Shown here: positions 1 through 14,999 of the stretch, piece after piece
Layout: each line of letters opens with the position of its first letter
How positions within the stretch are numbered: the stretch's first letter is position 1
Virus record (IMG/VR): IMGVR_UViG_3300026097_000099
Coordinates: 1-24,763 of that record
Reading direction: 5' to 3' (one strand)
From: a virus
Length of the DNA: 24,763 nt
Position numbers and translations under genes: made by a program
The notes under the pieces: generated by a model
What the model was told of the DNA's origin: nothing
Seen by the model: the letters and a program-made list of their open reading frames with translations, nothing else
Database searches by the model: none

Positions 1-655
1 CTTGGCGTAAATTAGGAATTTGTCTATACATTTCTTCCCAGAAAGTATCCTTTTCGTGCCATTTGTTATTAAATTCTTTGCGGTCCCATTGCATTTGCTG
101 TTTTACATTTTCATCTTGCAAAACCGGAATTAACTTTTTATGGTCAGCAACCCATTTACTTGAATCGTGAGGACTGCACATTACGCACTTAATATTGCAA
201 GTATGTCCTAAACGTAAATCTAAGTATTTTAAATTTTCTGGTACGGTTCCGTCTTCTTTTGTCTGACGTACTAGTTCGGGAATGTCTACGCCATCTTCCA
301 TCCAGGTATAGCTTTCCCAAACACGCTTACTAGCAACGCCTTTGGATTCTTCTTCGAAACATTTGCGACAACTAGCAGGAATTTTTCCATCTAACATTGT
401 TGTACGTACACTTCGCATGTATTCATTATTCCAGGCTTCCATTGGTGTCTCTCGACCAAAATTTGCCGGTTTGCCGTTTTCCATTTTAACTAGGCCAACT
501 TCGTGATCACTGCCTGCACCACTAGCATTGGCACTACAGCACAGGCGCATATCTCCGTTTGGTCTTGTAGCAAAGTGTATCCAAGGTAGGACACAAAATG
601 TCTTGCTGCCACTTTCTTGTGCAATTGCGTCTTGGTATTTTTTAAGATTAGACAT
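1..655 (-). CDS. Radical SAM protein with N-terminal twitch domain (3' end missing)
   Basis: Only the first 218 codons are inside the window; the gene runs off the left edge. The protein should bind a [4Fe-4S] cluster and cleave S-adenosylmethionine to start a radical reaction; the substrate is unknown. An N-terminal auxiliary-cluster region is seen first: FCVLPW at residues 20-25, CC at 39-40 and CRKC at 96-99. The core motif CNIKCVMC (CxxxCxxC) follows at 153-160. This order, with the accessory cysteines before the core, is typical of the N-twitch radical SAM family and opposite to classical SPASM proteins. The start is ATG at 655 with CGGGA about 8 bases upstream, and it overlaps the stop of the preceding gene by 8 bases (ATGTCTAA). 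It resembles the 7468-8565 protein in layout. The GGEP region and C terminus are not visible. Confidence 0.88.
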   Translation of the reverse strand, partial: MSNLKKYQDAIAQESGSKTFCVLPWIHFATRPNGDMRLCCSANASGAGSDHEVGLVKMENGKPANFGRETPMEAWNNEYMRSVRTTMLDGKIPASCRKCFEEESKGVASKRVWESYTWMEDGVDIPELVRQTKEDGTVPENLKYLDLRLGHTCNIKCVMCSPHDSSKWVADHKKLIPVLQDENVKQQMQWDRKEFNNKWHEKDTFWEEMYRQIPNLRQ

Positions 656-1727
656 TTTTGAATCCCGTAACTTTTATAAATTGATCTTTAGGTTTAGCAA
701 TTTTTTTATTTTTTCCGCAAGTTTTAGCACAAGTAATCAAACGATTTTGTGCCCAATATGCGTCCCAAACATTTTGCCACCCTTTTGAATTAATAATGTC
801 TTTTATGCTTTTTTCTAGCGCATAATTATTACCTATTTCTTGCATAAGATCATTATATTGTTCTAACATTTTCTTTCTAACAGGTGCGGTTATATCATTA
901 GGTTCACTATAATTGTATGGTGTACTAGCTAAGAAACAGCAAGGAAAAACTTGTTTATACGCATCGATATAAATTTCCTTGGTATGCCTTACATAACAAT
1001 CTATTTCTACGTCTTTAAGAACATCTTTATAATTTTTCACCATATCGCTTGAGATATAAGACAATCTACTATCTGTTGGAGGTTCTAAAAAGTACTCAGT
1101 TTCACCTGATTTGCCATACACTGCAAACTGTGGCTGTCCTATAAAACGACTACTATTTTTTTCAGTAAATAACGAAAATCCTAAAGCTTCTGCACGGGAT
1201 CTTGCTTCGTCAACTTGATGTTCGTTATGCTTAAATTTTAAAAAACACCATTCGGCTCTTCCGCCGGCTTCTATAAAAGATTTAGCATTTTGTATAACTG
1301 TTTCATATTTTGTACCTATTCTATACAAATGATGAGTATCTTCTAGACCGTCTATAGCAAAGATTACATTATGCGTTGGAGGCAATGCTTTCGCAAGATC
1401 TTCCCACCACTGCTTACTTCTTGCGCCACCATTAGTATGTATTCTAATATTTAATTTAGGATTTATAGATGTGCTATAACTACACATGTCAATTAGATCA
1501 TTATTAATAATAGGATCACCAAAATTTCCGCAGAAATAAAATCCTTTTAACTGTTGTAATACTTCTTCATTTAGTATACTTTTAAAGTCGTTTACAGTCC
1601 AATCTTTATTCTTAATAAATGGATTTTCTAAGCCGCCGTGTACATTACGACTGCACATAGGACAGCTCGCTTGACAGCGATTTGTAATTTCTAAATGAAT
1701 ATTTTCTAATTGCTGAAATGTGAACAT
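648..1727 (-). CDS. Radical SAM protein with C-terminal SPASM-like cysteines
   Basis: A 359-residue radical SAM enzyme. The core CxxxCxxC motif is CQASCPMC at residues 18-25, followed by a GNFGDP segment in the place of the usual GGEP SAM-binding motif and an HTNGG strand. The C-terminal part has CYVRHT, a PCC pair and CAKTCGK, consistent with one auxiliary iron-sulfur cluster of the SPASM/twitch type. Substrate unknown. It is transcribed leftwards and overlaps the next radical SAM gene by 8 bases. Upstream it is separated from the minus-strand operon by the opposite-strand 2OG oxygenase gene, so it may depend on read-through or on a local promoter in 1728-1795. No good Shine-Dalgarno sequence precedes the ATG at 1727, but the first codons lead directly into the conserved core. 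Confidence 0.87.
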   Translation of the reverse strand: MFTFQQLENIHLEITNRCQASCPMCSRNVHGGLENPFIKNKDWTVNDFKSILNEEVLQQLKGFYFCGNFGDPIINNDLIDMCSYSTSINPKLNIRIHTNGGARSKQWWEDLAKALPPTHNVIFAIDGLEDTHHLYRIGTKYETVIQNAKSFIEAGGRAEWCFLKFKHNEHQVDEARSRAEALGFSLFTEKNSSRFIGQPQFAVYGKSGETEYFLEPPTDSRLSYISSDMVKNYKDVLKDVEIDCYVRHTKEIYIDAYKQVFPCCFLASTPYNYSEPNDITAPVRKKMLEQYNDLMQEIGNNYALEKSIKDIINSKGWQNVWDAYWAQNRLITCAKTCGKNKKIAKPKDQFIKVTGFKNV

Positions 1728-1795
1728 ATACTATATTTATTGAGCACTAGTCAGCCTATGGAGTTATCTGGTAGTTTAACTACTAAATACACACA
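1728..1795. promoter_or_regulatory. Divergent intergenic region with possible promoters and a small palindrome
   Basis: This 68-base gap separates the divergent 648-1727 and 1796-2302 genes. On the minus strand AATAAATA at 1734-1741 is one mismatch from the T4 late-promoter octamer, but it lies only 7 bases from the ATG. On the plus strand ACTAAATA (1782-1789) is a poorer match. GTAGTT-T-AACTAC at 1771-1783 is a perfect 6-base dyad that could be an operator. Neither flanking gene has a clear ribosome binding site. The assignment is tentative. Confidence 0.35.
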
Positions 1796-2302
1796 ATGAA
1801 GTATATAGGCAACATAAAAAATAATACATGGACAGATCAAGTTGTATCCAAAGTGCTTTCAACTAAAGGAATACTACGGCCTAAACAAGGCGGAATACCC
1901 GAAGGCGACGAAGGACGCAGAGAATGGCAAAGAGCAATAGACGCAGGGTACGATGTTAATGCTGTCTACTTTCAAATGTTTACTCAGGACAACTTGGATA
2001 TAACTGTTCCAAATATTTCAACGTGCGGAAGATCACAACATTGGTGGATTACTAAAATGATGCCTGGACAGTTCATGCCGATGCACGTTGATCCGCACAC
2101 GCTACAACAAGAAAATGCAGATAGATTCTGGATACCATTACAGGACTGGCAACCAGGACATATTTTCATGTATGAGAATTATGTTACAACTGATTATACA
2201 AAAGGCGACATATTTCAGTACGAAAATAGTGCTGCATTACACGGAGCAGCTAATATTGGATCTGTACCTAGGGTAGTATTGCAGGTTACTTTACATGATT
2301 AA
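1796..2302 (+). CDS. 2OG-Fe(II) oxygenase-like protein
   Basis: The only plus-strand gene in the window, 168 residues. It has the jelly-roll iron-binding pattern HxD...H plus a 2-oxoglutarate-binding arginine: HVD at residues 97-99, H149 within AALHGAANIG, and R159. That fits an Fe(II)/2-oxoglutarate-dependent hydroxylase of the kind repeatedly seen in oceanic T4-like phages. The neighbouring RFWIPLQDW and KGDIFQYEN segments fit the beta strands around the active site. The substrate is unknown; protein, peptide or glycan hydroxylation are all possible. It ends tail to tail with the methyltransferase gene, the two TAA stops sharing the palindrome TTAA at 2299-2302. No Shine-Dalgarno sequence is seen before the ATG. 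Confidence 0.78.
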   Translation: MKYIGNIKNNTWTDQVVSKVLSTKGILRPKQGGIPEGDEGRREWQRAIDAGYDVNAVYFQMFTQDNLDITVPNISTCGRSQHWWITKMMPGQFMPMHVDPHTLQQENADRFWIPLQDWQPGHIFMYENYVTTDYTKGDIFQYENSAALHGAANIGSVPRVVLQVTLHD

Positions 2303-2904
2303 GTGTTCTTTTTCTTTCCTATAATCATAAAGCGAGTATACTTAGGTGTATCAAAAGTTCCACGCCAGTAAGGTTTAATTTTACTCATGCGCATAAAATC
2401 ATCTAAGTCGGTAGAACATCTTACATGCTCATCTAACTCAAAATAATTATTACTCTGTATTACAAACAATGCATCGTCTGGCTGATTGCTTAGCCATTGA
2501 TCATATTGTTCTTGTGTAACATGTTCGCAGCTTGTGTTAATTACAATATCTGCAGGTTCTGTGTATGTACACATATCTGCTGTTACTGCTTCGAAACGTC
2601 CTGACATTTCATAATTCTTGTTAACTGTATTTGCAGTTTCCTCACATGCAGGATCAATGTCTACACTTGTAATATGTTCTATACTCATCTTGCTATTGAA
2701 TAGAATACTAGCAAGAACACCATTCCATCCACCATATATTGCAATGCGAGCATTGTCATTTATATAATGTAAATGCAAGGTGTCGGCCAACCAAATCTTT
2801 GAATTAACTTGCCCTTTCCAAAAACTTTCAAGTGTGCGGTATCGATCGTCGCTGTTACGTATTGCATCCATCCAAAATAATACGTCTTGTATATCTACTT
2901 TCAT
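2299..2904 (-). CDS. Class I SAM-dependent methyltransferase
   Basis: A 201-residue protein with a Rossmann-type methyltransferase layout. IAIYGGWNG at residues 54-62 is the glycine-rich SAM-binding motif I, VDIDP at 81-85 carries the acidic residue expected to bind the ribose, VTAD at 107-110 is the adenine-contacting segment, and VINTSCEH at 121-128 sits where the catalytic motif IV would be. The target is unknown. The NTSCEH motif is not the DPPY/NPPY signature of DNA amino-methylases, so a small-molecule, glycan or protein target is more likely. Its ATG overlaps the stop of the upstream radical SAM gene by ATGA (2901-2904), which suggests translational coupling. It is the last gene of the uninterrupted minus-strand run before the inverted oxygenase gene. 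Confidence 0.8.
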   Translation of the reverse strand: MKVDIQDVLFWMDAIRNSDDRYRTLESFWKGQVNSKIWLADTLHLHYINDNARIAIYGGWNGVLASILFNSKMSIEHITSVDIDPACEETANTVNKNYEMSGRFEAVTADMCTYTEPADIVINTSCEHVTQEQYDQWLSNQPDDALFVIQSNNYFELDEHVRCSTDLDDFMRMSKIKPYWRGTFDTPKYTRFMIIGKKKNT

Positions 2905-3884
2905 AGTTTCCTCTTTGGTAGTTTACTATCTGCACTGCTAACACAGCTAGGAGTAATGCACTTTGCTGGTGCTTTAAACAGCTCAAATCCGCCGTCTAAC
3001 GTGCCTAAAGGCTGGTCGTGACAACTGTAGCTACGTTTTACTTCATTACCTCTTATGACGCATCCTTGATAGCCTGCATTACAAGTCCATCCTTCAAATT
3101 TATTAAATCCGAATGCGTTAAATCGTTCTGCTTGGTCTAATTCGTATTCGTTTCCAACTTTATCATAAAGAGAAATTTGTGCAATCTGTTCTCCTTTCCA
3201 TTGTTGTGAAAAACCTTGTTGCATTTTCAAGATTTGATCTTGTGTATATCCGTTAACTACAAAAGATGCTGTTGGGTCAGATTGTGGTTTTAGAGTAACA
3301 TTTATGCCTCGAGCAGCAAATCTTTCTAATCTTCCGTAAAGCTCTTCAAATATCTCCGGAACCATTACTTGATTAATTGTAACATAAACACCCGATTTCA
3401 TTAGCTGAAGGCATTTGTCTCCAAACTCTTTTTCATTTGCAAATTCTGCATGGTAGCTGGCCGTAATGCTTCTACGTTGCAATTTACTTGTCGAATCCAA
3501 CCACCGATTCCACCATTTACTACCCGGGCTTAGATTAGTAGTCATGTGTATGCTTTGATATTCGGGTGCTGTATCACTACAGTAATGATCTATGATCTCC
3601 CCAAAGTACTTATATGCTGTTGGCTCACCTCCACTAAAACTAAAGTGAAAGTCAGTGAAGTTATTTGCTCGAGCCTGTGCCTTGATACTATCAAGTGTGT
3701 TTAAGTACAATTCTAAATCTTGGTGGTCAGGGGTACTAGATCTTGCGTATGGCCAGCAATATGAGCAGTTATAATTACAAAATCTAGCCAGGATCCACGA
3801 AACCGTAAAAAGATGGCTCTTTAGGAGGGTCTTTTGGCCAAACTCGGTAATGTTATCCCAGGGTATGTTTTGAAAATTGTTCAT
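2901..3884 (-). CDS. Radical SAM protein (C-terminal extra cysteines)
   Basis: A 327-residue radical SAM enzyme with the core motif CNYNCSYC at residues 36-43 and FSGGEPTA at 83-90 for SAM binding. The C-terminal third has CNAGYQGC, YSC and CITPSC, resembling the organisation of SPASM-type auxiliary clusters, and a basic tail. It starts at ATG 3884, overlapping the end of the glycosyltransferase-like gene by 32 bases, and ends in an ATGA overlap with the methyltransferase. Together the three genes (3853-4530, 2901-3884, 2299-2904) form one tightly coupled unit behind the strong promoter at 4537-4565. Substrate unknown; the context suggests radical modification coupled to a glycosyl-transfer and methylation step (inference). 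Confidence 0.87.
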   Translation of the reverse strand: MNNFQNIPWDNITEFGQKTLLKSHLFTVSWILARFCNYNCSYCWPYARSSTPDHQDLELYLNTLDSIKAQARANNFTDFHFSFSGGEPTAYKYFGEIIDHYCSDTAPEYQSIHMTTNLSPGSKWWNRWLDSTSKLQRRSITASYHAEFANEKEFGDKCLQLMKSGVYVTINQVMVPEIFEELYGRLERFAARGINVTLKPQSDPTASFVVNGYTQDQILKMQQGFSQQWKGEQIAQISLYDKVGNEYELDQAERFNAFGFNKFEGWTCNAGYQGCVIRGNEVKRSYSCHDQPLGTLDGGFELFKAPAKCITPSCVSSADSKLPKRKL

Positions 3885-4530
3885 GCAACCATTCGAAGTC
3901 GTTTATTAAGAAAATATCATTGCTGCTAGAAAGGCCAAACTCACGACCAGTCCTAGCGCCGGCCAACGCAAATTTACCAAAGTCTCTATCCAATCCCACG
4001 GTTGTCCAAGTTTTGAGTCTTTCATTTGTTTCGTCCTCGTTTTGTCTATCAATTGTTTTACTTGCTAGTTTAGCACATTCTCTAAATGCACTTTTCCATG
4101 TATTAAATGGATCAGTGTTAAATGCAGTTATGTTTGCAACTTCTGGTACTGCTTTAAAATACTTGGATATGCTAGTTGTCATGTCGGGCTTACTAGTATC
4201 CATGTTTAAAGTTAAATTCTTTGGGAGTAATTTCACACCACCATAGCCATACACTAGATCATTGATAGGATTCTTGCTGCGCCAAACATGAACTGTTTCT
4301 AAATCGTATTCGTCAACTTTATAACCAAAGTCAAAACTATCCAATATTTCAGCATCTGCATCAACTACCCAAAACATTTTAGTAAAACATTTTTTAGCGG
4401 CTGCTATGTGTGCTTGGTGTATTCCTTTTACGCCATCTACACGCTTTGCTCTTGGAAATCTATCTTTTAGAGCTTGCCAGTTAGATTCTGCATTAGGTTC
4501 ATTATAAGAAATAAAGACGATATCATACAT
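3853..4530 (-). CDS. GT-A-like glycosyltransferase family protein
   Basis: A 225-residue protein beginning with a strand typical of a nucleotide-sugar binding fold (YDIVFISYNEPNAE), followed by FWVVDADAEI, whose DAD at residues 57-59 matches the DxD metal-binding motif of GT-A enzymes. It is clearly paralogous to the 12696-13604 protein: both have the FxSYxEPNAExN opening, AKRVxGVKG, the DAD motif, a GYGGxKL or GNGGLKM segment and a final DFEWL motif. Donor and acceptor are unknown. Its ATG at 4530 sits 6 bases after the TATAAT of an exact-consensus promoter and lacks a Shine-Dalgarno sequence, so its mRNA may be leaderless. It overlaps the following radical SAM gene by 32 bases. Confidence 0.65.
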   Translation of the reverse strand: MYDIVFISYNEPNAESNWQALKDRFPRAKRVDGVKGIHQAHIAAAKKCFTKMFWVVDADAEILDSFDFGYKVDEYDLETVHVWRSKNPINDLVYGYGGVKLLPKNLTLNMDTSKPDMTTSISKYFKAVPEVANITAFNTDPFNTWKSAFRECAKLASKTIDRQNEDETNERLKTWTTVGLDRDFGKFALAGARTGREFGLSSSNDIFLINDFEWLHEQFSKHTLG

Positions 4531-4536
4531 TGTTAT

Positions 4537-4565
4537 ATTATAACTTGTTTTAGGTTATTTGTCAA
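4537..4565 (-). promoter_or_regulatory. Exact-consensus sigma-70 promoter
   Basis: Reading on the minus strand, TTGACA (4565-4560), a spacer of exactly 17 bases and TATAAT (4542-4537) form a perfect bacterial housekeeping promoter. The -35 box lies inside the last codons of the 4555-5532 radical SAM gene. The expected transcription start, 6 to 8 bases after the -10 box, falls on or next to the ATG at 4530 of the glycosyltransferase-like gene. It should be read by unmodified host RNA polymerase, early in infection. Confidence 0.85.
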
Positions 4566-5532
4566 TCATGTAATCCTTGAGGGTAAAGTTTGTTCCTAGC
4601 ATATAGTCTGTGCTAGCTTTAGAGTCGTTACTCCAAACTAATACTTCAGGATCCTCGTATAGAAAATCACAGTTCTTACAATAGTCTATGCTGTCAAAGT
4701 CTTCCATTTCGTGTGCTTTACGTAATTCATTATACTTGTCACCATACCAAATATCTTCAATAGTTTGATTTTGCACATGACCTAGTACACTTTTACTTTC
4801 GTTAGGAGGACCCATTGTTTGACAACACGGTGTTACTGCTCCTTTTAGTCCATTAACGCCGCCGCTTCTAATTGTTATTTCAGGTGCAAATGGTCGACCA
4901 CATGTTCTACGCTTTTTAGGATCTCTTACATACAATGGCTGATAGTTTCCACTCCAATTATGCATTTTCCAAATGTATCCTATGCTACCTGTAGGACCTA
5001 TGAAGTTATTAATATATTGATCTACTTCATATTCTATTTGATTGTTGTCTAAAATAAGGTGATAACTAGAGATTGCACAATCGCTGTTAGACTGCTTGAT
5101 GTATTCTTTAGCCTTTATTACATTTGTTTTTAACAAATCAAAGTTGTCTACAGCCATCCATTCTTTATACGTTTCTTTATTGTATCCAATGCAACTAAAG
5201 CGAGCAAAGCTTAATCCAGCATCGATACAGTCTTGCATAAAGTGGCCACTAAAGAAACTGCCGTTGCTATACATGAAACTAGGCAACCCTCGTTTTGTGC
5301 ATTCTTGGATGTACAGTGGTAAGTCCTTTGCCATTGTGGGTTCCCCGCTGCCTTCTAGGTTAATAACAGGTTTGCCAGGCAGCTGGTCTAGAATATTAAT
5401 AAACATATCTAGAGGCATTTTGCGAGTCCATTCAGAACCCCTGCCTATAGTCTGCGGACACATTTGACATTTGTAATTACAACCGCCAAATACTTCTACA
5501 ACTGCTCTTTCTAGTTCAGGTACTTTGCTCAT
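4555..5532 (-). CDS. Radical SAM/SPASM domain protein
   Basis: A radical SAM enzyme of 325 residues from the chosen start, with core motif CNYKCQMC at residues 18-25 and a GSGEPTM segment equivalent to GGEP. The C-terminal half carries CGRPF, then a PCCQ pair, then YCKNC, which is the SPASM arrangement with GxxxPC-type spacing and a terminal CxxC; this would hold one or two auxiliary [4Fe-4S] clusters. SPASM proteins often modify peptides, but sugar-modifying members exist, so the substrate is open. ATG at 5532 is preferred over a GTG at 5541 because it gives an ATGA overlap with the upstream gene and has GGGGA just upstream. The last codons contain the -35 box of the 4537-4565 promoter. Confidence 0.88.
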   Translation of the reverse strand: MSKVPELERAVVEVFGGCNYKCQMCPQTIGRGSEWTRKMPLDMFINILDQLPGKPVINLEGSGEPTMAKDLPLYIQECTKRGLPSFMYSNGSFFSGHFMQDCIDAGLSFARFSCIGYNKETYKEWMAVDNFDLLKTNVIKAKEYIKQSNSDCAISSYHLILDNNQIEYEVDQYINNFIGPTGSIGYIWKMHNWSGNYQPLYVRDPKKRRTCGRPFAPEITIRSGGVNGLKGAVTPCCQTMGPPNESKSVLGHVQNQTIEDIWYGDKYNELRKAHEMEDFDSIDYCKNCDFLYEDPEVLVWSNDSKASTDYMLGTNFTLKDYMIDK

Positions 5533-6494
5533 TGTCCCCACTTATTCCATATTTCAGTTAATAGCTTTATATATGCGGCATCCATATGTCTAAAATCATA
5601 TTCTATCTTGCGATTATTAAATTCTATGCTGTAAAAGTCAGTATACTCTTTAAAAAAATCCTGTGCTTCGTTATAAGGCAAATTTTGTATACGGCCTACT
5701 GGAGCATATCCTAGTGCAAGCTGTTCGTCGTTTGGGTCGACGCCTTTACTCTCTAGCCAAGATGTAAATTTTTCGTCTGTTGGTAAATCATATCCTGTTC
5801 CAAAGTAACAGTTAAATTCTCCGCTTATCACCCTGTGTTCTGATATTCCATCTTGTTCAACTACATCATCGTTATCAAGGTATGCTTCGTACCATGTCTT
5901 ACCAGTTTGTGCATAGTGCAAGTATACTAAACCGTCGTCAATTTCTTTTACAAATTCTTTTTTAAATTTAGGATCCAGTTCAATACGTTCTTGTATTCCT
6001 AAAAGATTATAATAAAAATATCCGTTAACGTAACCGTCATCCTTGATAGCATCAGTTTCGTACCAAGCTTCTAGTTCATGGCAACAATGATTAAGATAGC
6101 AAATAGCTAGTCGTGTAGCGCCGTTTGCATTTGCAAGTACACTGCCTGGATTCCAAAGTTGTCCTTGTGAAACTTCGAAATGGTGATGCAACACATTTAG
6201 TAAATCTTGATCGCAACTGTATCTTAATGGTCCGAAATTTTCTAGTATTTTATAGTCTGTATGGTAATTAATTGTTGCAATACTTCTATCTAAGTCATCA
6301 CAGATATGTTCTACAGTCCTATAATTGTTATGAAAACCTAAAAGACTAAAATTTTTCTGAAAGATCTTTTTATTATGTGTTTCTAACAAACGGTCAAACT
6401 GGTTTAACCAGACGCTGGCTAATTCTGTGTCATCTGGTTTTATGTAAACATATTTTACATCATTATTTGTGTTTCTAAATCCAAGCTCTATCAT
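5529..6494 (-). CDS. Conserved phage-type protein of unknown function, with paired HxxE motifs
   Basis: A 321-residue soluble, acidic protein that I do not recognise. No signal peptide or membrane segment is seen. Two His/Glu-rich stretches stand out: LLNVLHHHFE (H103-H105, E107) and LNHCCHELE (H136, H139, E140, E142), each with an HxxE spacing and predicted helical. They could bind metal, for example in a helical diiron or zinc site, but this is inference. It starts at ATG 6494, 8 bases after AGGGA, overlaps the SGNH hydrolase gene by 20 bases upstream and the radical SAM gene by 4 bases downstream, so it is translationally tied to both. Confidence 0.75.
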   Translation of the reverse strand: MIELGFRNTNNDVKYVYIKPDDTELASVWLNQFDRLLETHNKKIFQKNFSLLGFHNNYRTVEHICDDLDRSIATINYHTDYKILENFGPLRYSCDQDLLNVLHHHFEVSQGQLWNPGSVLANANGATRLAICYLNHCCHELEAWYETDAIKDDGYVNGYFYYNLLGIQERIELDPKFKKEFVKEIDDGLVYLHYAQTGKTWYEAYLDNDDVVEQDGISEHRVISGEFNCYFGTGYDLPTDEKFTSWLESKGVDPNDEQLALGYAPVGRIQNLPYNEAQDFFKEYTDFYSIEFNNRKIEYDFRHMDAAYIKLLTEIWNKWGQ

Positions 6495-7308
6495 TGAATC
6501 CCTTTATAATTTGCTCTGCATGTGCTCGTTGTGACTTAATACCGGGATGCATCTTATCTCTTGCACATTTATCATCGATATTGGGGAACGGTTTAATAGT
6601 ATTATCTGGTAACATTTCTTTGCAGAATGCATTTGTGGGATGATCCCAAGAGCTAAACAATATTTTAATACCTTTATACTTTGCAATATCATATATCCAA
6701 TTTATGTTAGACAACGCTCGTGTTATATAAAAGTCATCATCCATGGATGTTAAAACTTTACAAAGTTTTTTATAGCCCGAGTGAGGATAAGCAGGTATTA
6801 GATTAATCATATCCCCTAGTTCTCCGGTGTGTAATTGTCTATGCCAGGCAGGAAGTGTTATCATTGCATAGTCTAAATCAATTAACGAATTTACAGCACT
6901 AAATGTCCTTGCTACACGTTCTATGCCTGCGCCTCCTGAACCAAAATTCAATGGATTAAGGTCAAGACGTTTTGCAACAATATTCGTATGCAGATTTAAC
7001 GACTCAATACCTTCGCCTGCTGTAAAACTACAACCAAAGAATCCAATACGCTTTCGTGTATTGTCAAAGTTCCAAATATCTCTAAAATTATATTCATTAA
7101 TTGTGTAATACCAGGGATCTTTATCCCATGTTTTTTCTTCTCCGCCTTGCATTATTTTAACTCGATAAGGTCCAGAAGATGTTGACAGTCTTTTTTCAAA
7201 TAGATCAAATTGTAATGCACCAAACGGTCTTAGATCTTCCAGACATGTTACTTTACAAGGTGCAGATTTTGCATACTGTTTAAGAATCTGATGAGAGATA
7301 TTACTCAT
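6475..7308 (-). CDS. SGNH/GDSL-family hydrolase
   Basis: A 277-residue protein with the landmarks of SGNH hydrolases: block I IGFFGCSFTAGEG around residues 88-100, with the nucleophile at S94; the block II glycine in NFGSGGAG (121-128); and block V D251xxH254 in RDKMHPG near the C terminus. Such enzymes hydrolyse esters, often O-acetyl groups on polysaccharides or lipids. The substrate here is unknown; a role in trimming acyl groups from a surface glycan fits the glycosyltransferase-like neighbours but is inference. There is no signal peptide, so it should act in the cytoplasm. ATG 7308 has CGGAG upstream and sits inside the ATGAGTAA overlap with the shifted frame of the preceding radical SAM gene. 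Confidence 0.75.
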   Translation of the reverse strand: MSNISHQILKQYAKSAPCKVTCLEDLRPFGALQFDLFEKRLSTSSGPYRVKIMQGGEEKTWDKDPWYYTINEYNFRDIWNFDNTRKRIGFFGCSFTAGEGIESLNLHTNIVAKRLDLNPLNFGSGGAGIERVARTFSAVNSLIDLDYAMITLPAWHRQLHTGELGDMINLIPAYPHSGYKKLCKVLTSMDDDFYITRALSNINWIYDIAKYKGIKILFSSWDHPTNAFCKEMLPDNTIKPFPNIDDKCARDKMHPGIKSQRAHAEQIIKGFNDRAWI

Positions 7309-7467
7309 TGCGTAACTCCGGGTTTAGAGAGAACACATCAGTATTTCGAATATCGTCAATTTGCTTCGATTTCCACTTGAACTGTTTCCAAAGATGGCTG
7401 TTGTCTGCTTGATACATAAAATCTATCATGCCTTGCCAACCATGAAACGGTATTCCAGTATCTGCTT
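7301..7467 (-). pseudogene. Out-of-frame C-terminal extension of the 7468-8565 radical SAM gene
   Basis: Directly after the TAG of the 7468-8565 gene, the -1 frame stays open for 56 codons (first codon ATA at 7469-7471) and ends at TAA 7301-7303. The translation looks like real protein: FHGWQGMIDFMYQAD, then QIDDIRNTDVFSLNPEL. The last segment resembles the C-terminal DRRRGKDFSDVF of the 11317-12699 radical SAM paralogue. The stop falls in ATGAGTAA, an 8-base overlap with the next start codon like those at three other junctions. The shift maps to a run of six A (7471-7476, minus strand): seven A would give one continuous ORF of about 421 codons. Confidence 0.75.
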
Positions 7468-8565
7468 CTATTTTTTACCGTACTTGGTTATTTTTTCAGC
7501 TGCTTGTTCTTTGAGCAATGGTGGCAGAACTGTGATGCTATAGTAATCTGGAGTGAACAACGGATTAATATGGAATCGATCTACCCAATAGTTTTCCATA
7601 TAGAAGCCACGTCTAGGATGCACACTTTCTAGTGGCATTAGATCGTTTTTATGCAGTTCTTCGTGAAGCTCTGTGATTCTAAAAATGTTAAGAATGCTAA
7701 CTGTAGGATGGAACCAGTAGTCTACTGCACCGCTTTCTCTTATCTTTTTTAAGTTTTCAAGCGTGGATGCCCATTTACCTTTATACCTAATGTGTTCAAA
7801 TGCATCGCCTTCGCCGTCAATACTAAGACTTAGGTGTACATAATTAAATTTCTTCCAATATTCTAGTACATTTTGCTTTGCTGTACCTAGAGTAGTACCG
7901 TTAGTACTGTATCTAAGATCAACATCAAACTTTTCCTTTTCTACTAACATATCTAATATACGCCAATGCTCTGGCATAATCAAAGGTTCGCCACCTGCAA
8001 AGTGTATTTCGCTCATTGCATCTAGATTATATTCAATGTCACCCCAAAATTTGCTTGCTTCTTTAAGGTCGATAAGACGTGTTTCACTATATTTGTCAGC
8101 ACCAGGGTGCAACTTCTGAAAATCTTTACTCCACTGTGTACTAAACAATGGACTGCAAGTTGTACAAGCAAGATTACAATAATTACTAAAGCGAAAATCC
8201 CAATACTTTAGCTGTAGCTCTGGAATAGTTCCATCTTCTTCTGTACGAGCAATTAAATCTTTTGTATCGTCAAACCATTTACTGTTTAATCCAGTTCTCA
8301 TAGTGTTCATATTATGGCTTTGTTTTGAAACACAGCGTTCGCATGCACTAGGAAGTGGTTTTCCGTCCAGCATATCTTTACGCATTTTCTTTGCACGGTC
8401 GCTGTTAACAACTTCTATGAGATGTTGTTCTTTTACGTTACCAAAACTGTTTTCGTTGCGTAAAGGAGTCTGACAGCAAGCAAACGCTCTACCGTCATTG
8501 ATGACGTGTAAGTGCATCCAAGGAGCAACACAAAAGTTTTCAGAATTCTTTAAGTCATCATTCAT
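7468..8565 (-). CDS. Radical SAM protein with N-terminal twitch domain (reading frame interrupted near 3' end)
   Basis: A 365-residue product as read. Accessory cysteines come first: FCVAPW at residues 11-16, CC at 30-31 and CERC at 75-78. The core CNLACTTC at 130-137 and FAGGEPL at 189-195 follow, with a typical STNGT strand and SIDG segment. This is an N-twitch radical SAM enzyme of unknown substrate, most like the partial gene at 1-655. The ORF ends with KYGKK and TAG right after an A6 run, while about 56 further codons that look like the family's C terminus continue in the -1 frame. The start at 8565 has AGAGAG upstream and overlaps the preceding gene by 8 bases (ATGAATGA). Confidence 0.88.
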   Translation of the reverse strand: MNDDLKNSENFCVAPWMHLHVINDGRAFACCQTPLRNENSFGNVKEQHLIEVVNSDRAKKMRKDMLDGKPLPSACERCVSKQSHNMNTMRTGLNSKWFDDTKDLIARTEEDGTIPELQLKYWDFRFSNYCNLACTTCSPLFSTQWSKDFQKLHPGADKYSETRLIDLKEASKFWGDIEYNLDAMSEIHFAGGEPLIMPEHWRILDMLVEKEKFDVDLRYSTNGTTLGTAKQNVLEYWKKFNYVHLSLSIDGEGDAFEHIRYKGKWASTLENLKKIRESGAVDYWFHPTVSILNIFRITELHEELHKNDLMPLESVHPRRGFYMENYWVDRFHINPLFTPDYYSITVLPPLLKEQAAEKITKYGKK

Positions 8566-9910
8566 ACATCATCTCTCTAAATAGTTGTTGAAACTTACGC
8601 TCGTTCTTTTTCTCGTAAAATTTTTCTTTATTCTTTGCCATAAATGGTACAGTTTCGTTTATTCGATCTTGCAGTTCTTGTTTATCAAAATTAATTATTC
8701 GTTCTATATTGTCACAAATTGCTTCTGCTCGTTTAGTAGTGCTGGAGATCTTGTCATAATATTGATCAATAAGTAAAGTAGGAGCAAAATAACCTTCATT
8801 GCTTATGTGTCCCATAGTATTTACACAACCCATAACCATGAAAGGGTGTCCTTTGGCTATTTGTCTCCAGGTTCCCATTCTAGGAGCAATAACATTGGTC
8901 TCATCTAGATAATGCTTATCGAAGGGAGGAATAAACGGCTCACTTACAATGTTAATTAAGCTGTTTTCATAAACACTTTTATCGACAGCCAATGGCGTTT
9001 TTTTAATTTGTCGGATATCAAAGTCTATTTTACTAACTGTCTTTTCTAATAGCTTTAATATCCCAGTCTTTTCTTGAATATAAGCTTCGCCTTTTGATTT
9101 ATCTACAATTCTAAAATCATTAGGGTTTATATTAAATTGTTCTTCTGCTACGTTATAACTAAAAATACCGTAATTTTTTAATTTTCTGTAAATTATTTCG
9201 GCTATAAGTGTATGGTCATGCAGTCTAGTTGATCCACAAAACGCTGTAAACGTATATTTTGGGTTCCAATTGTTTATGTCAAAATTTTCTCTATCATACT
9301 GTTCTGCTGATACAGGACAAGAGTGTGTATCTTTAAATACCCAGTACCAATCTTCGAGACCGTATCGACTTTTATAAGCAATTTGGGTGTGTATTTGCCA
9401 CCAGTCTATTCCGAAAACATTATTGTTATCGAATAGTTTTTTATATGATTCGTTTAAATCTCCTAGTACTATAAAAATTTGTTGTCTTTTTACTCCATGT
9501 CCAGCAAGTTCATCTAATCGTACTCTTAGTTTCCAAAGATATTTGTATCCTAAAGTTAGCCAAGGAGCAAATATCAATAGTTTCATTTTGCCCTTAGCTA
9601 TTTTAGATATTGTTTTAGATGAAATAAACTCTGTGAATGATGTATCCCAGTTTAATCCATTATTAAGTTCTAGAGGATAAAATAAATTTTTTGCTGTTTC
9701 TTTTCCAGAAAATAAATTTATGTCTAATTTTAATGCTTTCATTGCATTATAAAATGCAGTATGTCTTAAAACCGGAGTGTTTACTTTAGATGCATACGGA
9801 ATTCTTTTAAAGTCATTACTAAATGTGTAAGAAGAAACTCCATTAGGAATTGGAGTCTCATCAATTATACGATCATAATAGAGATTAATCGTAGGACGCA
9901 AGAGGATCAT
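8558..9910 (-). CDS. Putative GT-B-like glycosyltransferase or related phage protein
   Basis: A 450-residue soluble protein. The C-terminal third follows a pattern I associate with GT-B-like phage proteins: LINIVSEPF, then GTWRQIAKGHPFMVMG, a segment around NEGYFAP, IDQYYDKI and a helix with KRAEAICDNIERI. The same order in other phage proteins places a nucleotide-sugar site between the IVSE strand and the GHPF strand. The first half (KLLIFAPWLTLGYKYLW, FIVLGDLNE) has alternating strands and helices consistent with a Rossmann-like domain. The catalytic assignment is weak because the usual TEK motif is replaced by DETNV. It starts at ATG 9910 behind AAGGAAT, overlaps its upstream gene by 26 bases, and is sandwiched between N-twitch radical SAM genes. 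Confidence 0.5.
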   Translation of the reverse strand: MILLRPTINLYYDRIIDETPIPNGVSSYTFSNDFKRIPYASKVNTPVLRHTAFYNAMKALKLDINLFSGKETAKNLFYPLELNNGLNWDTSFTEFISSKTISKIAKGKMKLLIFAPWLTLGYKYLWKLRVRLDELAGHGVKRQQIFIVLGDLNESYKKLFDNNNVFGIDWWQIHTQIAYKSRYGLEDWYWVFKDTHSCPVSAEQYDRENFDINNWNPKYTFTAFCGSTRLHDHTLIAEIIYRKLKNYGIFSYNVAEEQFNINPNDFRIVDKSKGEAYIQEKTGILKLLEKTVSKIDFDIRQIKKTPLAVDKSVYENSLINIVSEPFIPPFDKHYLDETNVIAPRMGTWRQIAKGHPFMVMGCVNTMGHISNEGYFAPTLLIDQYYDKISSTTKRAEAICDNIERIINFDKQELQDRINETVPFMAKNKEKFYEKKNERKFQQLFREMMYE

Positions 9911-11333
9911 CGATATTCCTTGGGTCTGGTTTTAGTATCCAGCCTTCTTTTTCTGCAAGTTCCTCAATTTCTGTGTCTGTATCAGGAATACTATCCATCC
10001 AATCTGTTAAGATCTTAGGAAAAACGTAGATGCTTTTATTTCTACGAACATCGTACTGCTGATAAAATGTTTTAAAGTCTCTCCACAATGTAATCGGGTT
10101 GCTTGTTCTCCTATGAGGAGCATCAACTGTGACAAGATAATCAATCAAACGTTCAATGCTTGCACGTTCAAATTCGTGCCACCCTTCTTTGTGCTTATTT
10201 TCTTCCCACCATGTACTAAGATTTGCATGACAATGGTCTTTAATATGATTAGGAAGTGCTAGAGGGCTTTGAAAACTAGGAAAACGCAAAAGATTTACAC
10301 TAACAGTAGGTGTCCTACTGTTTGTCATTTCTTTCAGCTTATAAATTTCATCAAGAAAATCTGTAATTGTAAACAAGCATAGGCTATTAATTGTCATCAT
10401 AACATTAACGCCATTACAATTTCCCTCGTTTAACAATCTCTTGATATTTTTAAGCCACATATCGTAGTCAAGACCGTCACGGATATATTCTGCTTGTGTT
10501 CCTGTTGCTTCACAACTGGTATACAAATCAAAATGCTTCATTCCCTGTGTCTTTTCTATAAGCTTATCGATAATACTGTCTTTGGCAATTAGATTACTAT
10601 TGATTGCAAAACGCATATCTGTATCTTGCTCATTAAACCAATCGAACAGCTTCCAGGTATTTCCGCTCATCAACGGCTCTCCACCTGTTACTCTCAGTTC
10701 TTCTAGGCTATCAGACAGGCCATTATCCCACCATTTCCAAAACGCCCGAATGTAAGGATTATCTTCGTCGTTCTTGTAAGGCTGTGTCCACGAACCGTCT
10801 TGCTGAAATGCACCTGCTCCGTCACTTACAAGATTTTCATACGCACCGTTATTTTTAATATCTTTAGCCCAGGTTGTACTAAAGCTGGCATTACAGTAAG
10901 AACATGCTAAATTACAAGTTCTATCAAATGCAATTTCAAATGTTTTTAAACCTACATTAGCGTGTGAGTCTAGATCATATGCACGTTGCAGTTCCTCATC
11001 TGAATATATAATGCTTTTAAACGTCCTGTCACTTACAGCATCTTTGCTCATATCTTCCATTTTCCAGCAATATTCACACTCACGCGGACGCTCACCGTTC
11101 TGCATCATACGACGCATTTCTTTTTTATGCTTAGTATTATGAATAGCAGTGTAATCTGCTTCTACTTCAGCAATAGGAATTTTATGTGCAGGCGGGTGAT
11201 GACAACTAGCAGTAGTACCGCTTCCTAACCAGGTTGTAGCATTAAACCACTTTGCACCACAAAAGCTCTTACTTTTGCTGTCTAGAACTCTATCTCTATA
11301 CTGCTGTAGATTTTCTTCAGGCTTCTTTGGCAT
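9885..11333 (-). CDS. Radical SAM protein with modified N-terminal twitch (SCHHP type)
   Basis: A 482-residue radical SAM enzyme. Its N terminus has FCGAKWF (C25), SCHHPPAHKIP (C44) and CEYCW (C86, C89); the CC pair of ordinary N-twitch proteins is replaced by S-C-H-H. The core motif is CNLACSYC at 140-147 and RVTGGEPLM gives the SAM-binding GGEP. It is a close paralogue of the neighbouring 11317-12699 protein through its whole length: ALHN/AIHN, GERPxECxYCWKxED, SDRxxK, NPYxxAFWKW, and TxxEATGTQAEY against TSLESTGEQAEY. Substrate unknown. Start ATG 11333 lies behind AGAGGAATGG and overlaps the paralogue's end by 17 bases. Confidence 0.88.
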   Translation of the reverse strand: MPKKPEENLQQYRDRVLDSKSKSFCGAKWFNATTWLGSGTTASCHHPPAHKIPIAEVEADYTAIHNTKHKKEMRRMMQNGERPRECEYCWKMEDMSKDAVSDRTFKSIIYSDEELQRAYDLDSHANVGLKTFEIAFDRTCNLACSYCNASFSTTWAKDIKNNGAYENLVSDGAGAFQQDGSWTQPYKNDEDNPYIRAFWKWWDNGLSDSLEELRVTGGEPLMSGNTWKLFDWFNEQDTDMRFAINSNLIAKDSIIDKLIEKTQGMKHFDLYTSCEATGTQAEYIRDGLDYDMWLKNIKRLLNEGNCNGVNVMMTINSLCLFTITDFLDEIYKLKEMTNSRTPTVSVNLLRFPSFQSPLALPNHIKDHCHANLSTWWEENKHKEGWHEFERASIERLIDYLVTVDAPHRRTSNPITLWRDFKTFYQQYDVRRNKSIYVFPKILTDWMDSIPDTDTEIEELAEKEGWILKPDPRNIDDPLASYD

Positions 11334-12699
11334 TCCATTCCTCTAATAAATGTTCGTATCTTAAAAATACATCGGAGAAGTCTTTACCTCTCCGACGGTC
11401 ATATGCTTGTATGTATCTTACAAAGTCTTGTCTATGCTCTGTTGCGGTTTCTTCAGTACGCAAGTATTCACAAAACCTCTGTATCTGATCAAACTCTTCT
11501 AGATATATTCTTGCGTATTTCTCTTTAGAATAGTACTTTAACCAACTCTTGCACAGTTCTTCAATTGTTGTTGCAAACTTTTCTCTATCCTCTTTGTCTA
11601 ACAAAGAACACTGTAAGTGCGGTGGCCATCTCATAATGTTTATGCTTAATGGAATTCTGTTAACTTCAAAGCTCTTGTTAAATTCTACTCTAAACTCCAT
11701 AACAGTCATAATAAAATCAACAAATGTTGGTAGGCTTAGAATATTGATCGTAGTCATAATTGCTACATTGGCATTTGTTTCGTTGAGAATTTTACCTACT
11801 GTTTTAATCCAATATAGATAATTTAGACCATCTCTTGCATATTCAGCCTGCTCGCCTGTGCTTTCGAGACTTGTATAGACATCTACTTTAACACCTACTT
11901 TTTCCAGTGCATTGATCTTTTCAATCAGGCGATTAATTAACTTTTCTTCTACACATGCATTAGTATTAATTGCAACATCTAAACCTTTGCGTGGATTTTC
12001 AATTAGGTAATCTAGCAGCTTCCAGGTATCTTTTGACATTGTAGGTTCGCCGCCTGTGATACGTAGTACTTTTAGATGCGGCAATGCATCCGGAAACCAT
12101 TTCCAAAATGCGTCTACATAAGGATTATAATCTCTATTCTTGTAAGGCATTTTGCCTGTCTTTTCTAAATAGTCTAAATGATGAGCACCGTGCTTAGTAG
12201 GATAAGCACCGTGCATTTTAATATCTTCCATCCATTTACTACTAATTTCAGGTGAACAGTATGCACATGCAAAATTACATGCATTCGAGAAACTGACTTC
12301 TAAATAACTAGGATAAACATTATCGTTAGCATTGCTAGACGCTATTTCATTAAATCTATCCCATGCCCAGGTGTCCGAAGTCTTATAGTGTCTATCTGAA
12401 AAATATGTTTTATCTAAGTCTTCGATCTTCCAACAATAGTTACATTCACTAGGGCGTTCGCCCTTTAGCATTTTAGCACGTTGTTCTTTTTTAAACTTAC
12501 TGTTATGCAGTGCTGCTGGGTCTGCTTCTACTTCCTCAAGAGGAATCTTGTGGGGTGCAGGATGGTGACAACTATGATTGTATCCGTTCTGTAAATATAA
12601 TGTAGTTTGTAACCATTTAGCCGTACAGAAACTACAACTTACGTTGTTAATTTTTTCACGTTTATCTTCTAATATTTTTATGCGTTCTTCGTTACTCAT
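11317..12699 (-). CDS. Radical SAM protein with modified N-terminal twitch (SCHHP type), paralogue
   Basis: A 460-residue radical SAM enzyme, tandem paralogue of 9885-11333. N-terminal cysteines and histidines: C22 and C25 in SCSFCTAKW, C44 in NHSCHHPAPHKIP, C86 and C89 in CNYCWKIED. The core is CNFACAYC at 141-148, with RITGGEPTM for SAM binding. The C terminus ends with YDRRRGKDFSDVF, a motif shared with the out-of-frame tail at 7301-7467. The two paralogues may act on the same substrate or as a heteromer (inference). It begins in an ATGA overlap with the glycosyltransferase-like gene at 12696, mirroring the glycosyltransferase-then-radical-SAM order at 3853-2901. Confidence 0.88.
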   Translation of the reverse strand: MSNEERIKILEDKREKINNVSCSFCTAKWLQTTLYLQNGYNHSCHHPAPHKIPLEEVEADPAALHNSKFKKEQRAKMLKGERPSECNYCWKIEDLDKTYFSDRHYKTSDTWAWDRFNEIASSNANDNVYPSYLEVSFSNACNFACAYCSPEISSKWMEDIKMHGAYPTKHGAHHLDYLEKTGKMPYKNRDYNPYVDAFWKWFPDALPHLKVLRITGGEPTMSKDTWKLLDYLIENPRKGLDVAINTNACVEEKLINRLIEKINALEKVGVKVDVYTSLESTGEQAEYARDGLNYLYWIKTVGKILNETNANVAIMTTINILSLPTFVDFIMTVMEFRVEFNKSFEVNRIPLSINIMRWPPHLQCSLLDKEDREKFATTIEELCKSWLKYYSKEKYARIYLEEFDQIQRFCEYLRTEETATEHRQDFVRYIQAYDRRRGKDFSDVFLRYEHLLEEWNAKEA

Positions 12700-13604
12700 C
12701 GAGACCTAATAATCCTTGGTGTGTTTTGATATACAGTTTTGAAGAATTTGCTTTGTCCGGCACTTAACGGCGCAACATCAATATCAACTTGTGTTCCTTT
12801 GAGAATTTCTAGTCCAAGCCTTTCACACTCGTCGTATATTTCATGTTCGCTGTTTATGTTAGCACGAACTTCTTGCTCCCAAAATGTGTTCAACCATTCA
12901 AAGTCACGTACATTTGAATAGTCCCAGTCTGTGCAGTTTGTCATATAGCAGCCTTGACGAGCTCCTAAGATACTCCACATGCCATTATCTACATCAGCAC
13001 CAACTTGACTCCAGATAAGCAATCTATGATAGTTTTGCCACCATACTTTACTTAAATCATTTACTCGTGCCCCGCGATCTAGACTCATTTTAACGCCTTC
13101 ACGAAAACCGGCACGCCAGGCTTGCCAAGGTGTTGCATTAGTGTGCGATACGCTATAGTTCTCGTTAAACTGATAATATCTATCATCAAAGCAGAATTCA
13201 ACTTTTCCGCGTTCATCGCCTTCTTCACTGTTTTCATGCGTCTTCATGTTATGCACAAATTTACGTGTCCACATCTTAAGACCGCCGTTGCCGTACATTA
13301 GTCCGTTAACATGAATTTTACCGCACCAACTAAACACATGATCAGATGTTAATCCTAGCTCGTCAATATCCACTACAACATTTAAAAAATCTTGATCTAC
13401 AATGTTATCAGCATCAACAGTAATAAAATATTCTGTTTCCGAAATGTCTGCACAAGCTTTGTGCGCAGCATCGCTGCCTTTGACTCCGTGAACACGTTTA
13501 GCCCATGGTATCTTTTGTACTAGATCTGCATAGTTTTTTTCTGCGTTTGGTTCGTCGTAACTAAGGAAGACGATATCTTGGTCTACTACTGCAATTTTAC
13601 TCAT
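12696..13604 (-). CDS. GT-A-like glycosyltransferase family protein, paralogue of 3853-4530
   Basis: A 302-residue protein opening with DIVFLSYDEPNAEKN and AKRVHGVKG, then FITVDADNIVD with DAD at residues 64-66 as the probable metal and nucleotide-sugar binding DxD. It shares these blocks, NGLMYGNGGLKM, the WRAGFREG helix and the final DFEWL with the 225-residue 3853-4530 protein, but is about 75 residues longer, with an insertion around the ENSEEGDERGKVEF segment and a longer C-terminal tail. The acceptor is unknown. It is coupled by ATGA overlaps at both ends (13601-13604 and 12696-12699), so it is a middle member of the operon from the 16220-16248 promoter. Confidence 0.65.
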   Translation of the reverse strand: MSKIAVVDQDIVFLSYDEPNAEKNYADLVQKIPWAKRVHGVKGSDAAHKACADISETEYFITVDADNIVDQDFLNVVVDIDELGLTSDHVFSWCGKIHVNGLMYGNGGLKMWTRKFVHNMKTHENSEEGDERGKVEFCFDDRYYQFNENYSVSHTNATPWQAWRAGFREGVKMSLDRGARVNDLSKVWWQNYHRLLIWSQVGADVDNGMWSILGARQGCYMTNCTDWDYSNVRDFEWLNTFWEQEVRANINSEHEIYDECERLGLEILKGTQVDIDVAPLSAGQSKFFKTVYQNTPRIIRSR

Positions 13605-14179
13605 TCGGCCTCCTGAATATGAAAGTAGTTTTCGAATACTTTACCACAGTATAAACTCACATTGGGGTCAAGAGCAACCTTTTTATCTACATCTTCTAAT
13701 TCATACGAATCAGTATACAGTATTTTATAAAACGGTAAATTAATAAATTCTAATAGAACGTTTGGATTGTCTTTTTTACAAATATAAATTAGCTGATTTT
13801 TATCTTTATAATAAAGAGTGCTTGTTAAGATATCTCGCAATTCTTTAGACAATTCAATTGTCCATTTTCCTTGTTTTAAGTTTTGTCTTACAACAAATGC
13901 ACTGTCGGTATTAATTGTTTTTACTTTAGGAAATTGATGTATACTTTTATCTACATCAAATTCTGTAAGGTCTTTATGTTTAAATTTTATTTCATATTTT
14001 ACTTTAGAATCAGTAGACGGCACCACAATATAGTCATCCATCTTTTTACGTTCTTCAGCAAATTCGATCATTGTTTCTCTATCAATTTCGATATAAGGCG
14101 TAGAGGTATCTAACTCATTTGTTAGCTTCCAGATAACTCCAGTCTCTTCTCTAAAATTAAGATAAAAGTGTTTTTCCAT
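13601..14179 (-). CDS. Hypothetical protein
   Basis: A 192-residue protein that I do not recognise. It is rich in beta-strand-like alternating segments (KYEIKFKHKDL, GKWTIELSKEL, NQLIYICKK) and has no signal peptide, membrane helix or conserved cysteine pattern. It lies between the tandem GT-A-like pair and the DAD-motif protein and shares a 23-base overlap upstream and ATGA downstream, so it is expressed with them. A small binding or chaperone-like domain is possible, but nothing in the sequence specifies a function. Confidence 0.7.
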   Translation of the reverse strand: MEKHFYLNFREETGVIWKLTNELDTSTPYIEIDRETMIEFAEERKKMDDYIVVPSTDSKVKYEIKFKHKDLTEFDVDKSIHQFPKVKTINTDSAFVVRQNLKQGKWTIELSKELRDILTSTLYYKDKNQLIYICKKDNPNVLLEFINLPFYKILYTDSYELEDVDKKVALDPNVSLYCGKVFENYFHIQEAE

Positions 14180-14999
14180 TTTCTAATTTCTCAATAATTT
14201 CTTCAGTAAGGAATTCGTCTTCTACATAATGTAGTACTCTTGTCTGAGCGTAATTACCTAAAAACAGTATTCCTTCGTCTGTAAAATACTTTCCAATAAC
14301 CTTTGTCCATTTGTCTGGTACATTATACCAACCCTGTATTCTAGGTTTCATGTGCGTAAACGTAATAAAGCTATTAGGATCGGTGATGTCTTTTTCGTTC
14401 CCTAATATTTTGCTTGCAATAGCAGCACAAAGATCTATACTACACCAATTTTGATAATTTTCTTTTGCATACTTAGAATAAAATAGTGCCCAATTGTTTA
14501 CTATTACTTCTAATAGATTATAAAACTCTTTTGCAGTATCGCCTTTTTTAAAGTAGTGCATTGCGCTATATAGATTAGGCAAGTCGTTTGAAACAAATGT
14601 CTTTCTATAAAACGTCTTTGTAACTAATTCGTCTCTGTATGTTCTAACATTGCTTACAAAGAATAGTTCTCGCTTGCCAAGTTCTTCCCACCAATGTGTA
14701 ATGTCAGAAGTTATAAACATGTCAGCTTCTAGTACAACAGTTTCGTCATACGGACTAGCATGATATACTTTCCAACGATTTTCAATTTTCCAGTCGCTGT
14801 CTTCGGCACTGTCTGACCACGGAATAGGAATAATCTGATCGAATACTGATTGCCATTCTTCTGGGACTACATCATTAGTGATAATGCTGATCTTTTGATC
14901 TTTGTTAAACATGTGCAAACTGCATGCTAGAGCATATGCTTGTTTTATGTAATCTGTTTTGCCGTTATTCTGTGCAAGTAAACAAAATCCTTTATTCAT
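14157..14999 (-). CDS. GT-A-like protein, first of a tandem paralogous pair
   Basis: A protein of 280 residues from the chosen start. It opens with KGFCLLAQNNGKTDYIKQAY and has a TNDVVP segment and VVLEADMFI around residues 88-96, where EAD fills the position of a DxD motif. The 14992-15852 neighbour has the same opening (GILLFAQNNHSVDYIKQA), the LATDNPDY segment and IVMDTDF with a full DxD, so the two are tandem duplicates. The fold resembles GT8-like enzymes that use retained sugar nucleotides, but this is family-level inference. ATG 14999 is preferred to an upstream ATG at 15023 because both paralogues start two residues before the same motif and it gives the ATGAATAA overlap seen elsewhere. 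Confidence 0.6.
   Translation of the reverse strand: MNKGFCLLAQNNGKTDYIKQAYALACSLHMFNKDQKISIITNDVVPEEWQSVFDQIIPIPWSDSAEDSDWKIENRWKVYHASPYDETVVLEADMFITSDITHWWEELGKRELFFVSNVRTYRDELVTKTFYRKTFVSNDLPNLYSAMHYFKKGDTAKEFYNLLEVIVNNWALFYSKYAKENYQNWCSIDLCAAIASKILGNEKDITDPNSFITFTHMKPRIQGWYNVPDKWTKVIGKYFTDEGILFLGNYAQTRVLHYVEDEFLTEEIIEKLENGKTLLS

Follow-up and report, generated by a model that had tools for sequence, protein, structure and literature searches.

Why does a marine T4-like phage carry a dense run of radical S-adenosylmethionine (rSAM) and glycosyltransferase (GT) genes directly behind its tail-fibre genes, and on what do their products act? This question is raised by a 24,763-nt viral fragment (IMG/VR record IMGVR_UViG_3300026097_000099, positions 1 to 24,763), hereafter the window. 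Read from right to left, as it is transcribed, the window contains S23817, three tail-fibre/structural genes, S17350 and S16252; then X15849, GTd, GTc, X13601, GTb, rS7, rS6, X8558, rS5, SGNH and X5529; and finally rS4, GTa, rS3, a methyltransferase gene (MT), a 2-oxoglutarate (2OG) oxygenase-like gene on the opposite strand, rS2 and rS1 (Table 1). Our tentative answer, to which we assign a probability of about 0.45, is that these genes form a late-expressed module that builds and diversifies a glycan, is transcribed with the tail-fibre genes, and has the virion as its likeliest acceptor.

The identity of the rSAM genes was evaluated using curated profiles. An earlier note on this DNA had placed seven of them in positions 1-12699, and all seven were recovered at the coordinates it gave. 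Specifically, six frames matched PF04055 (E 2e-8 to 7e-15); the seventh, rS1, ends at the contig edge before this domain completes and was identified using NF033640, the NCBIfam model for N-twitch rSAM proteins. The weakest PF04055 match was that of rS6, at 28.3 bits against the Pfam cut-off of 29.5; it passed, at 30.9, only with neighbouring segments. The curated NF033640 cut-off of 170 bits was exceeded by rS1, despite its truncation, and by rS5, rS6 and rS7 (scores in Table 1). At 36.2, 34.9 and 24.6 bits, respectively, rS2, rS3 and rS4 are not members. In the N-twitch alignment, the CxxxCxxC core, the GGE motif and the four N-terminal twitch cysteines were intact and their columns invariant, and a PDB profile search aligned the N-terminal part with the twitch region of BtrN. 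Contig L188 shares 4824 nt with the left end of the window at 99.94% identity and extends 5.9 kb beyond the edge. In this contig, rS1 is complete, encoding 460 amino acids with the core CNIKCVMC, and lies next to four more open reading frames (ORFs) that have CxxxCxxC cores, identified by motif. The phage appears to have at least eleven candidate rSAM genes. Searches of phage databases with rS7, rS6, GTb and GTd returned no close relative. A prokaryotic viperin or defence assignment was rejected: NCBIfam viperin scores were 23.8-38.0 bits (cut-off 180) and those for PADLOC pVip were at most 38.2 bits.

Four GT-like genes were recognised by profile, model or homology. The predicted structure of GTb matched SunS/ThuS, RmlT and polypeptide GalNAc-T in Foldseek, and its best PDB matches were GT-A enzymes. 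GTc and GTd resemble GT8 enzymes by their profile match to glycogenin; no Pfam family was found for either at E ≤ 0.05, and we do not place them in family GT8 itself. A further gene, X8558, is GT-like by eye and was without a match in Pfam, PHROG or PDB. The earlier note had set its five putative GT-like genes within 1-12699, a range that excludes GTc and GTd (14157-15852).

The conservation of the gene set was evaluated using three baits scanned separately: rS7, the fibre-family alignment (S17350) and rS3. With the fibre bait, X15849, GTd, GTc, GTb and at least one rSAM gene were present in 53/53 loci having at least 6 kb downstream; as the contigs were not fully dereplicated, this count and those that follow gauge consistency, not independent events. 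The recurring order was tail fibres-X15849-GT8-GT8-(X13601)-GT-A-rSAM, and an rSAM gene lay no further than two genes from GTb in 50 of the 53 loci. With rS7 as the bait, 46/47 loci with room had rS6 at most three genes away, and 33/43 had GTb/GTa upstream. Similarly, a GTa/GTb-type gene lay at most three genes upstream of rS3 in 72/73 loci, and MT lay downstream in 57/59. Counts this steady across baits argue against genes carried independently and scattered, and bear out the proposal of the earlier note that the genes belong together as one module.

Gene maps of the relatives revealed constant left and right blocks flanking a variable middle that contains extra rSAM genes, SGNH, GT-like genes and nucleotide-sugar enzymes. 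Compact versions of the island still keep fibre-X15849-GT-GT-GT-rSAM. The enzymes encoded in the variable part or its surroundings in relatives include GDP-mannose dehydratase/epimerase, UDP-sugar dehydrogenase, DegT aminotransferase, carbamoyltransferase and 2OG oxygenases. The nucleotide-sugar enzymes among them fit the glycan pathway envisaged in the earlier note; its description of that pathway as complete did not survive, the middle being a region of variable cassettes and not a fixed pathway. The related contigs have 3 to 16 PF04055 genes each, mostly clustered, and 9 of the 10 relatives tested had a gp23 match. Within the window, most junctions between module genes are overlaps of 4-32 nt. 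The described arrangement, one strand and mostly overlapping, thus holds for the rSAM genes and fails for the 2OG-like gene. A highly variable middle is also what a loose set of auxiliary genes or morons would give, without a common product and held together by recombination hot-spots. With fixed flanking blocks, near-universal linkage and overlapping reading frames, we judge such a collection very unlikely.

The timing of expression was evaluated from promoter-like motifs. T4 late promoters are TATAAATA-like. ATAAATA occurs at 4 sites in the window versus 13 expected in shuffles, and all 4 are on the coding strand directly upstream of ORFs (S23817, S18284, S17350 and rS2). When all loci were compared, ATAAATA stood before S23817 and S18284 in 96% of cases and before S17350 in 62%; for X15849, for GT genes and for the majority of rSAM genes the figure was 0-2%, the background being 0.5%. 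The exceptions among the module genes are X8558 (35%) and rS2 (5%). In a 169-kb relative, 17 of the 36 ATAAATA sites are followed by an ORF at a distance of 8-45 nt, versus 1.6% of positions by chance; ten of its motif-downstream genes were tested, four of which have a role named in PHROG: baseplate hub, tail fibre, head-tail adaptor and tail tube. Because the motifs stand at the fibre genes and the overlapping GT and rSAM genes mostly lack them, the module is probably read late, via read-through from the late promoters of the fibre genes. Late-type expression, in turn, favours decoration of the virion over an early modification of the host surface or of DNA, and tilts the choice among surface glycan, virion and peptide that the earlier note had left towards the virion.

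Some phages glucosylate their DNA, base pathways that depend on rSAM enzymes exist, and two of the rSAM proteins of the window are weakly similar to a QueE-like PHROG, as might be expected if the rSAM and GT genes made modified bases that protect DNA from host nucleases. Nevertheless, the rSAM family is N-twitch and not QueE, no base-biosynthesis genes were recognised in the window, the promoter motifs are late-type, and the module adjoins fibre genes. DNA hypermodification is therefore highly improbable.

In the mechanism that we favour, the constant left block (X15849, the two GT8-like genes and the GT-A gene, usually with rS7 and often with rS6) is proposed to attach a core glycan and to extend it. 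The variable middle contains N-twitch and SPASM rSAM genes, an SGNH acyl hydrolase/transferase gene and another GT-like gene and, in relatives, genes for a GDP-sugar dehydratase, a sugar dehydrogenase and an aminotransferase. Together with the constant right block (GTa, rS3, methyltransferase, rS2 and rS1), it would oxidise, rearrange, methylate or acylate the sugars or their carrier protein. The acceptor would most likely be the virion, and within it chiefly the tail-fibre proteins, whose genes lie immediately upstream; cassette swapping could then vary receptor binding or the surface chemistry of the particle. A diversifiable glycan best fits the GT8 profile, the GT-A model and the nucleotide-sugar enzymes of the relatives, and late timing together with the fixed fibre linkage makes the virion the likelier acceptor.

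The GT8-like and nucleotide-sugar enzymes might instead remodel a host surface glycan, either the O-chain of lipopolysaccharide or capsule, and thereby block superinfection or progeny adsorption, fibre adjacency then reflecting receptor-fibre co-evolution. The published account reads the GT8 genes of pelagimyophage host-recognition islands in this way (PMC7029224), and the layout of constant flanks and variable middle recalls surface polysaccharide loci. However, the late expression suggested by the fibre-gene motifs and gene overlaps would be ill-timed for superinfection exclusion, and no transporter, flippase or polymerase was recognised among the window genes. We consider host-surface remodelling unlikely, if far from negligible.

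Several results weigh against a virion-directed glycan module. The fold matches of GTb have low TM-scores, about 0.33. Pairs of rS7 and rS6 occurred with no GT gene nearby in 10 of the 43 loci with upstream room (for example L036, L039 and L049), so this pair is not dependent on fibre surroundings. The gene for gp23, tried as a positive control for the motif, was without ATAAATA within 100 nt, and the late-promoter reading thus rests on other structural genes. Gene-distance correlations showed no special fibre-GT co-evolution and were uninformative. Cellular N-twitch relatives (about 30 bacterial loci) were not beside GT genes, and their neighbours had no theme. Finally, no acceptor site, sugar adduct or peptide adduct is known.

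Two cultured jumbo phages, Sinorhizobium Phosso and Agrobacterium Atu_ph07, contain a parallel island. Homologues of the S23817 and S18284 fibre genes are there directly followed by an rSAM cluster, with four rSAM-motif genes in Phosso and three in Atu_ph07. Unlike in the window, the rSAM genes belong to other subfamilies, no GT genes were recognised, and a protein of approximately 300 amino acids is encoded between the rSAM genes, with the C-terminal ends DYCHTSCHASCHSSRSRR / DFCHSSCHASCHNSRSRR (conserved CHxSCHxSCHxSRSRR tail). A scan of viral contigs, together with these two phages, yielded at least 81 phage proteins with a C-terminal CHxSCHxSCHxS-R-G/S-RR tail. Among the matches listed, an rSAM-motif gene lay within 3 kb of 66 of 74 tailed proteins versus 73 of 292 other genes on the same contigs. 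Five of these rSAM-motif neighbours were tested using Pfam: two gave clear radical SAM matches and three gave weak ones. The tail looks like an undescribed core similar to those of ribosomally synthesised and post-translationally modified peptides (RiPPs), carried on phage, possibly virion, proteins. The string CHSSCHSS was not found in the literature searched. A relationship between S17350 and the CHxS-tailed Phosso protein was rejected (probability 1%).

SPASM and twitch rSAM enzymes mostly modify peptides. This, together with the CHxS-tailed protein and the frequency of rSAM-motif genes near such tails, is what a RiPP-like maturation would predict, in which a peptide, or the fibre polypeptide itself, is the direct target of the rSAM enzymes (thioether, C-C crosslink or epimerisation) and the GTs are secondary. 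Yet CHxS tails were found neither in the window nor in eleven relatives, which makes them a parallel and not the mechanism here. The sole sizeable same-strand gap in the window (7308-7468) holds the frame-shifted tail of rS5 and no recognisable small precursor ORF, in keeping with the earlier note, which had seen no precursor peptide; the locus is accordingly not classed as a RiPP cluster. The structural proteins of the window are, moreover, Cys-poor. We regard RiPP-like maturation as distinctly unlikely at this locus.

A broader proposal, possible but doubtful, is that a dozen rSAM enzymes and the GTs together form a decoration line acting on the tail fibres, whose exchangeable cassettes alter fibre chemistry and hence host recognition. 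This would be the first rSAM-dependent modification of a virus particle and would recur, as a glycan type and as a peptide type (CHxS tail), in no fewer than three T4-like lineages: marine, rhizobial jumbo and Campylobacter. If fibres are the substrate, the marine phages of this group would owe their host range to both fibre sequence and post-translational chemistry, and the islands would represent a large untapped source of rSAM and GT reactions. As Phosso and Atu_ph07 are cultured and carry the parallel island behind a homologous fibre gene, the question is directly testable.

Phages of the T4 type that are rich in rSAM genes are on record, so the density that the earlier note had thought beyond that of known phages is not in itself new. 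The T4-like Campylobacter phages CP220 and CPt10 (Firehammervirus) encode 11 and 12 rSAM proteins, respectively, and an exchangeable five-rSAM module, for which the authors proposed a metabolic benefit (PMC2853527). Campylobacter phage CP21 resembles the window in having an S18284-like fibre gene near rSAM genes, whereas the similarity of the rSAM proteins themselves is remote (22% for rS3 in CP21). No homologue of GTd or GTb was found in phage records. The marine T4-like genome TARA_ERS488813_N000010 has 12 rSAM genes, discussed as Fe-S protein content; the available text describes no tail-fibre/GT module (PMC5332604). The host recognition cluster of pelagimyophages, which are T4-like marine phages, contains GT8 and rSAM cassettes, with the host O-chain named as the target; in its available text, this account gives neither a fixed fibre-GT8-GT8-GT-rSAM order nor a late-promoter logic (PMC7029224). 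Relatives of the window, which is itself a fragment, have an island of this type: fibre, GT8 and rSAM genes occur together in T4-like genomes that bear gp23. In mycobacteriophages, glycans are covalently attached to virion proteins and phage GTs are implicated (Freeman et al. 2023, cited in PMC11256854); the available citing text mentions no rSAM enzyme and concerns capsid proteins, not T4-like fibres. The conserved fibre-GT-rSAM architecture and its late-unit logic were not found in the literature searched. These, together with the parallel rSAM island behind a homologous fibre gene in Phosso and Atu_ph07, are new.

Table 1. Features of the window and CHxS-tail loci on other contigs.
Feature	Position	Strand	Assignment	Basis or remark
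rS1 (rS1tw)	1-655	-	N-twitch radical SAM	NF033640 181.7 bits; cut by contig end
rS2	648-1727	-	Radical SAM	PF04055 32.3 bits; C-terminal SPASM-like Cys
ATAAATA	1734-1740		Late-promoter-like motif, doubtful	Upstream of rS2; only 6 nt from start codon
2OG-like	1796-2302	+	2OG-Fe(II) oxygenase-like	HxD...H motif by eye
MT	2299-2904	-	Class I SAM methyltransferase-like	Methyltransf_25 E=0.014, below cut-off
rS3	2901-3884	-	Radical SAM	PF04055 45.6 bits
GTa	3853-4530	-	GT-A-like glycosyltransferase	GTb homologue with invariant DxD
rS4	4555-5532	-	Radical SAM/SPASM	PF04055 41.2, SPASM 42.8 bits
X5529	5529-6494	-	Conserved His-rich protein	AlphaFold2 (AF2) pLDDT 74.7
SGNH	6475-7308	-	SGNH hydrolase/acyltransferase-like	GCSxT, N, DxxH invariant
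rS5 (rS5tw)	7468-8565	-	N-twitch radical SAM	NF033640 338.5 bits; frame interrupted near C-terminus
X8558	8558-9910	-	Glycosyltransferase-like, 450 aa	By eye only
rS6 (rS6tw)	9885-11333	-	N-twitch radical SAM	NF033640 293.4 bits; partner of rS7
rS7 (rS7tw)	11317-12699	-	N-twitch radical SAM	NF033640 328.5, PF04055 36.6 bits
GTb	12696-13604	-	GT-A-like glycosyltransferase	AF2 model pLDDT 90, Foldseek
X13601	13601-14179	-		Present in 46/53 linked loci
GTc	14157-15023	-	GT8-like glycosyltransferase	Profile match to glycogenin E 5e-7
GTd	14992-15852	-	GT8-like glycosyltransferase	Joint profile with GTc
X15849	15849-16196	-	Small protein	Present in 53/53 linked loci
S16252	16252-17346	-	Putative fibre/structural protein	S17350 paralogue; alignment
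S17350	17350-18255	-	Putative fibre/structural	First gene past last fibre-side late motif
TATAAATA	18281-18288	-	Late-promoter-like motif	Before S17350
S18284	18284-19804	-	Tail fibre protein	PHROG tail fibre
ATAAATA	19829-19835	-	Late-promoter-like motif	Before S18284
S19845	19845-21731	-	Virion structural/tail fibre protein	PHROGs
S21731	21731-23812	-	Tail fibre with tail-collar domain	PHROGs
S23817	23817-24431	-	phrog_11259	Adjoins fibres in jumbo T4-like phages
ATAAATA	24450-24456	-	Late-promoter-like motif	Before S23817
CHxS tail	L277:17679-18599			PV764938.1, XYS97446.1
CHxS tail	L346:18449-19339			MF403008.1, AUZ94952.1
CHxS tail	Within L347-L429			For example L362:1111-1491

Among the other module genes, the SGNH hydrolase named in the earlier note was confirmed: the catalytic residues S94, N121, D251 and H254 are invariant in the alignment, corresponding to the block I Ser, block III Asn and block V DxxH, and the first motif is GCS, not GDS. 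Its methyltransferase and 2OG oxygenase are putative assignments from motifs, the former with a sub-threshold Pfam match and the latter with no Pfam match. The AF2 model of X5529 gave no PDB fold match, and no family match was detected; the gene often adjoins rS6/rS4 in these islands. A link between X5529 and a Phosso protein was unsupported (hhalign probability 4%). Rfam and tRNA scans of the window found nothing.

For rS4, an alternative GTG start at 5541 is possible. The rS5 protein has 365 amino acids versus 421 in relatives, and the missing C-terminus is readable in another frame past an A run (window 7301-7480); the interruption may be either a real frameshift (pseudogene or slippage) or a sequence error. 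Of the 191 viral contigs that matched rS3, the best 80 share 80% identity or more with it; the gene is apparently more conserved than its neighbours, which could reflect recent spread or strong constraint. Contig L080 (GTDB PBPT01000082.1), binned as Neomarinimicrobiota, carries the phage island fibres-GTd-GTc-GTb-rSAM and is therefore probably a misbinned phage. In addition, roughly eight rSAM genes of the N-twitch and rS3-like kinds are clustered on L075, a Bdellovibrionia contig from a metagenome-assembled genome, and may represent a cellular counterpart.

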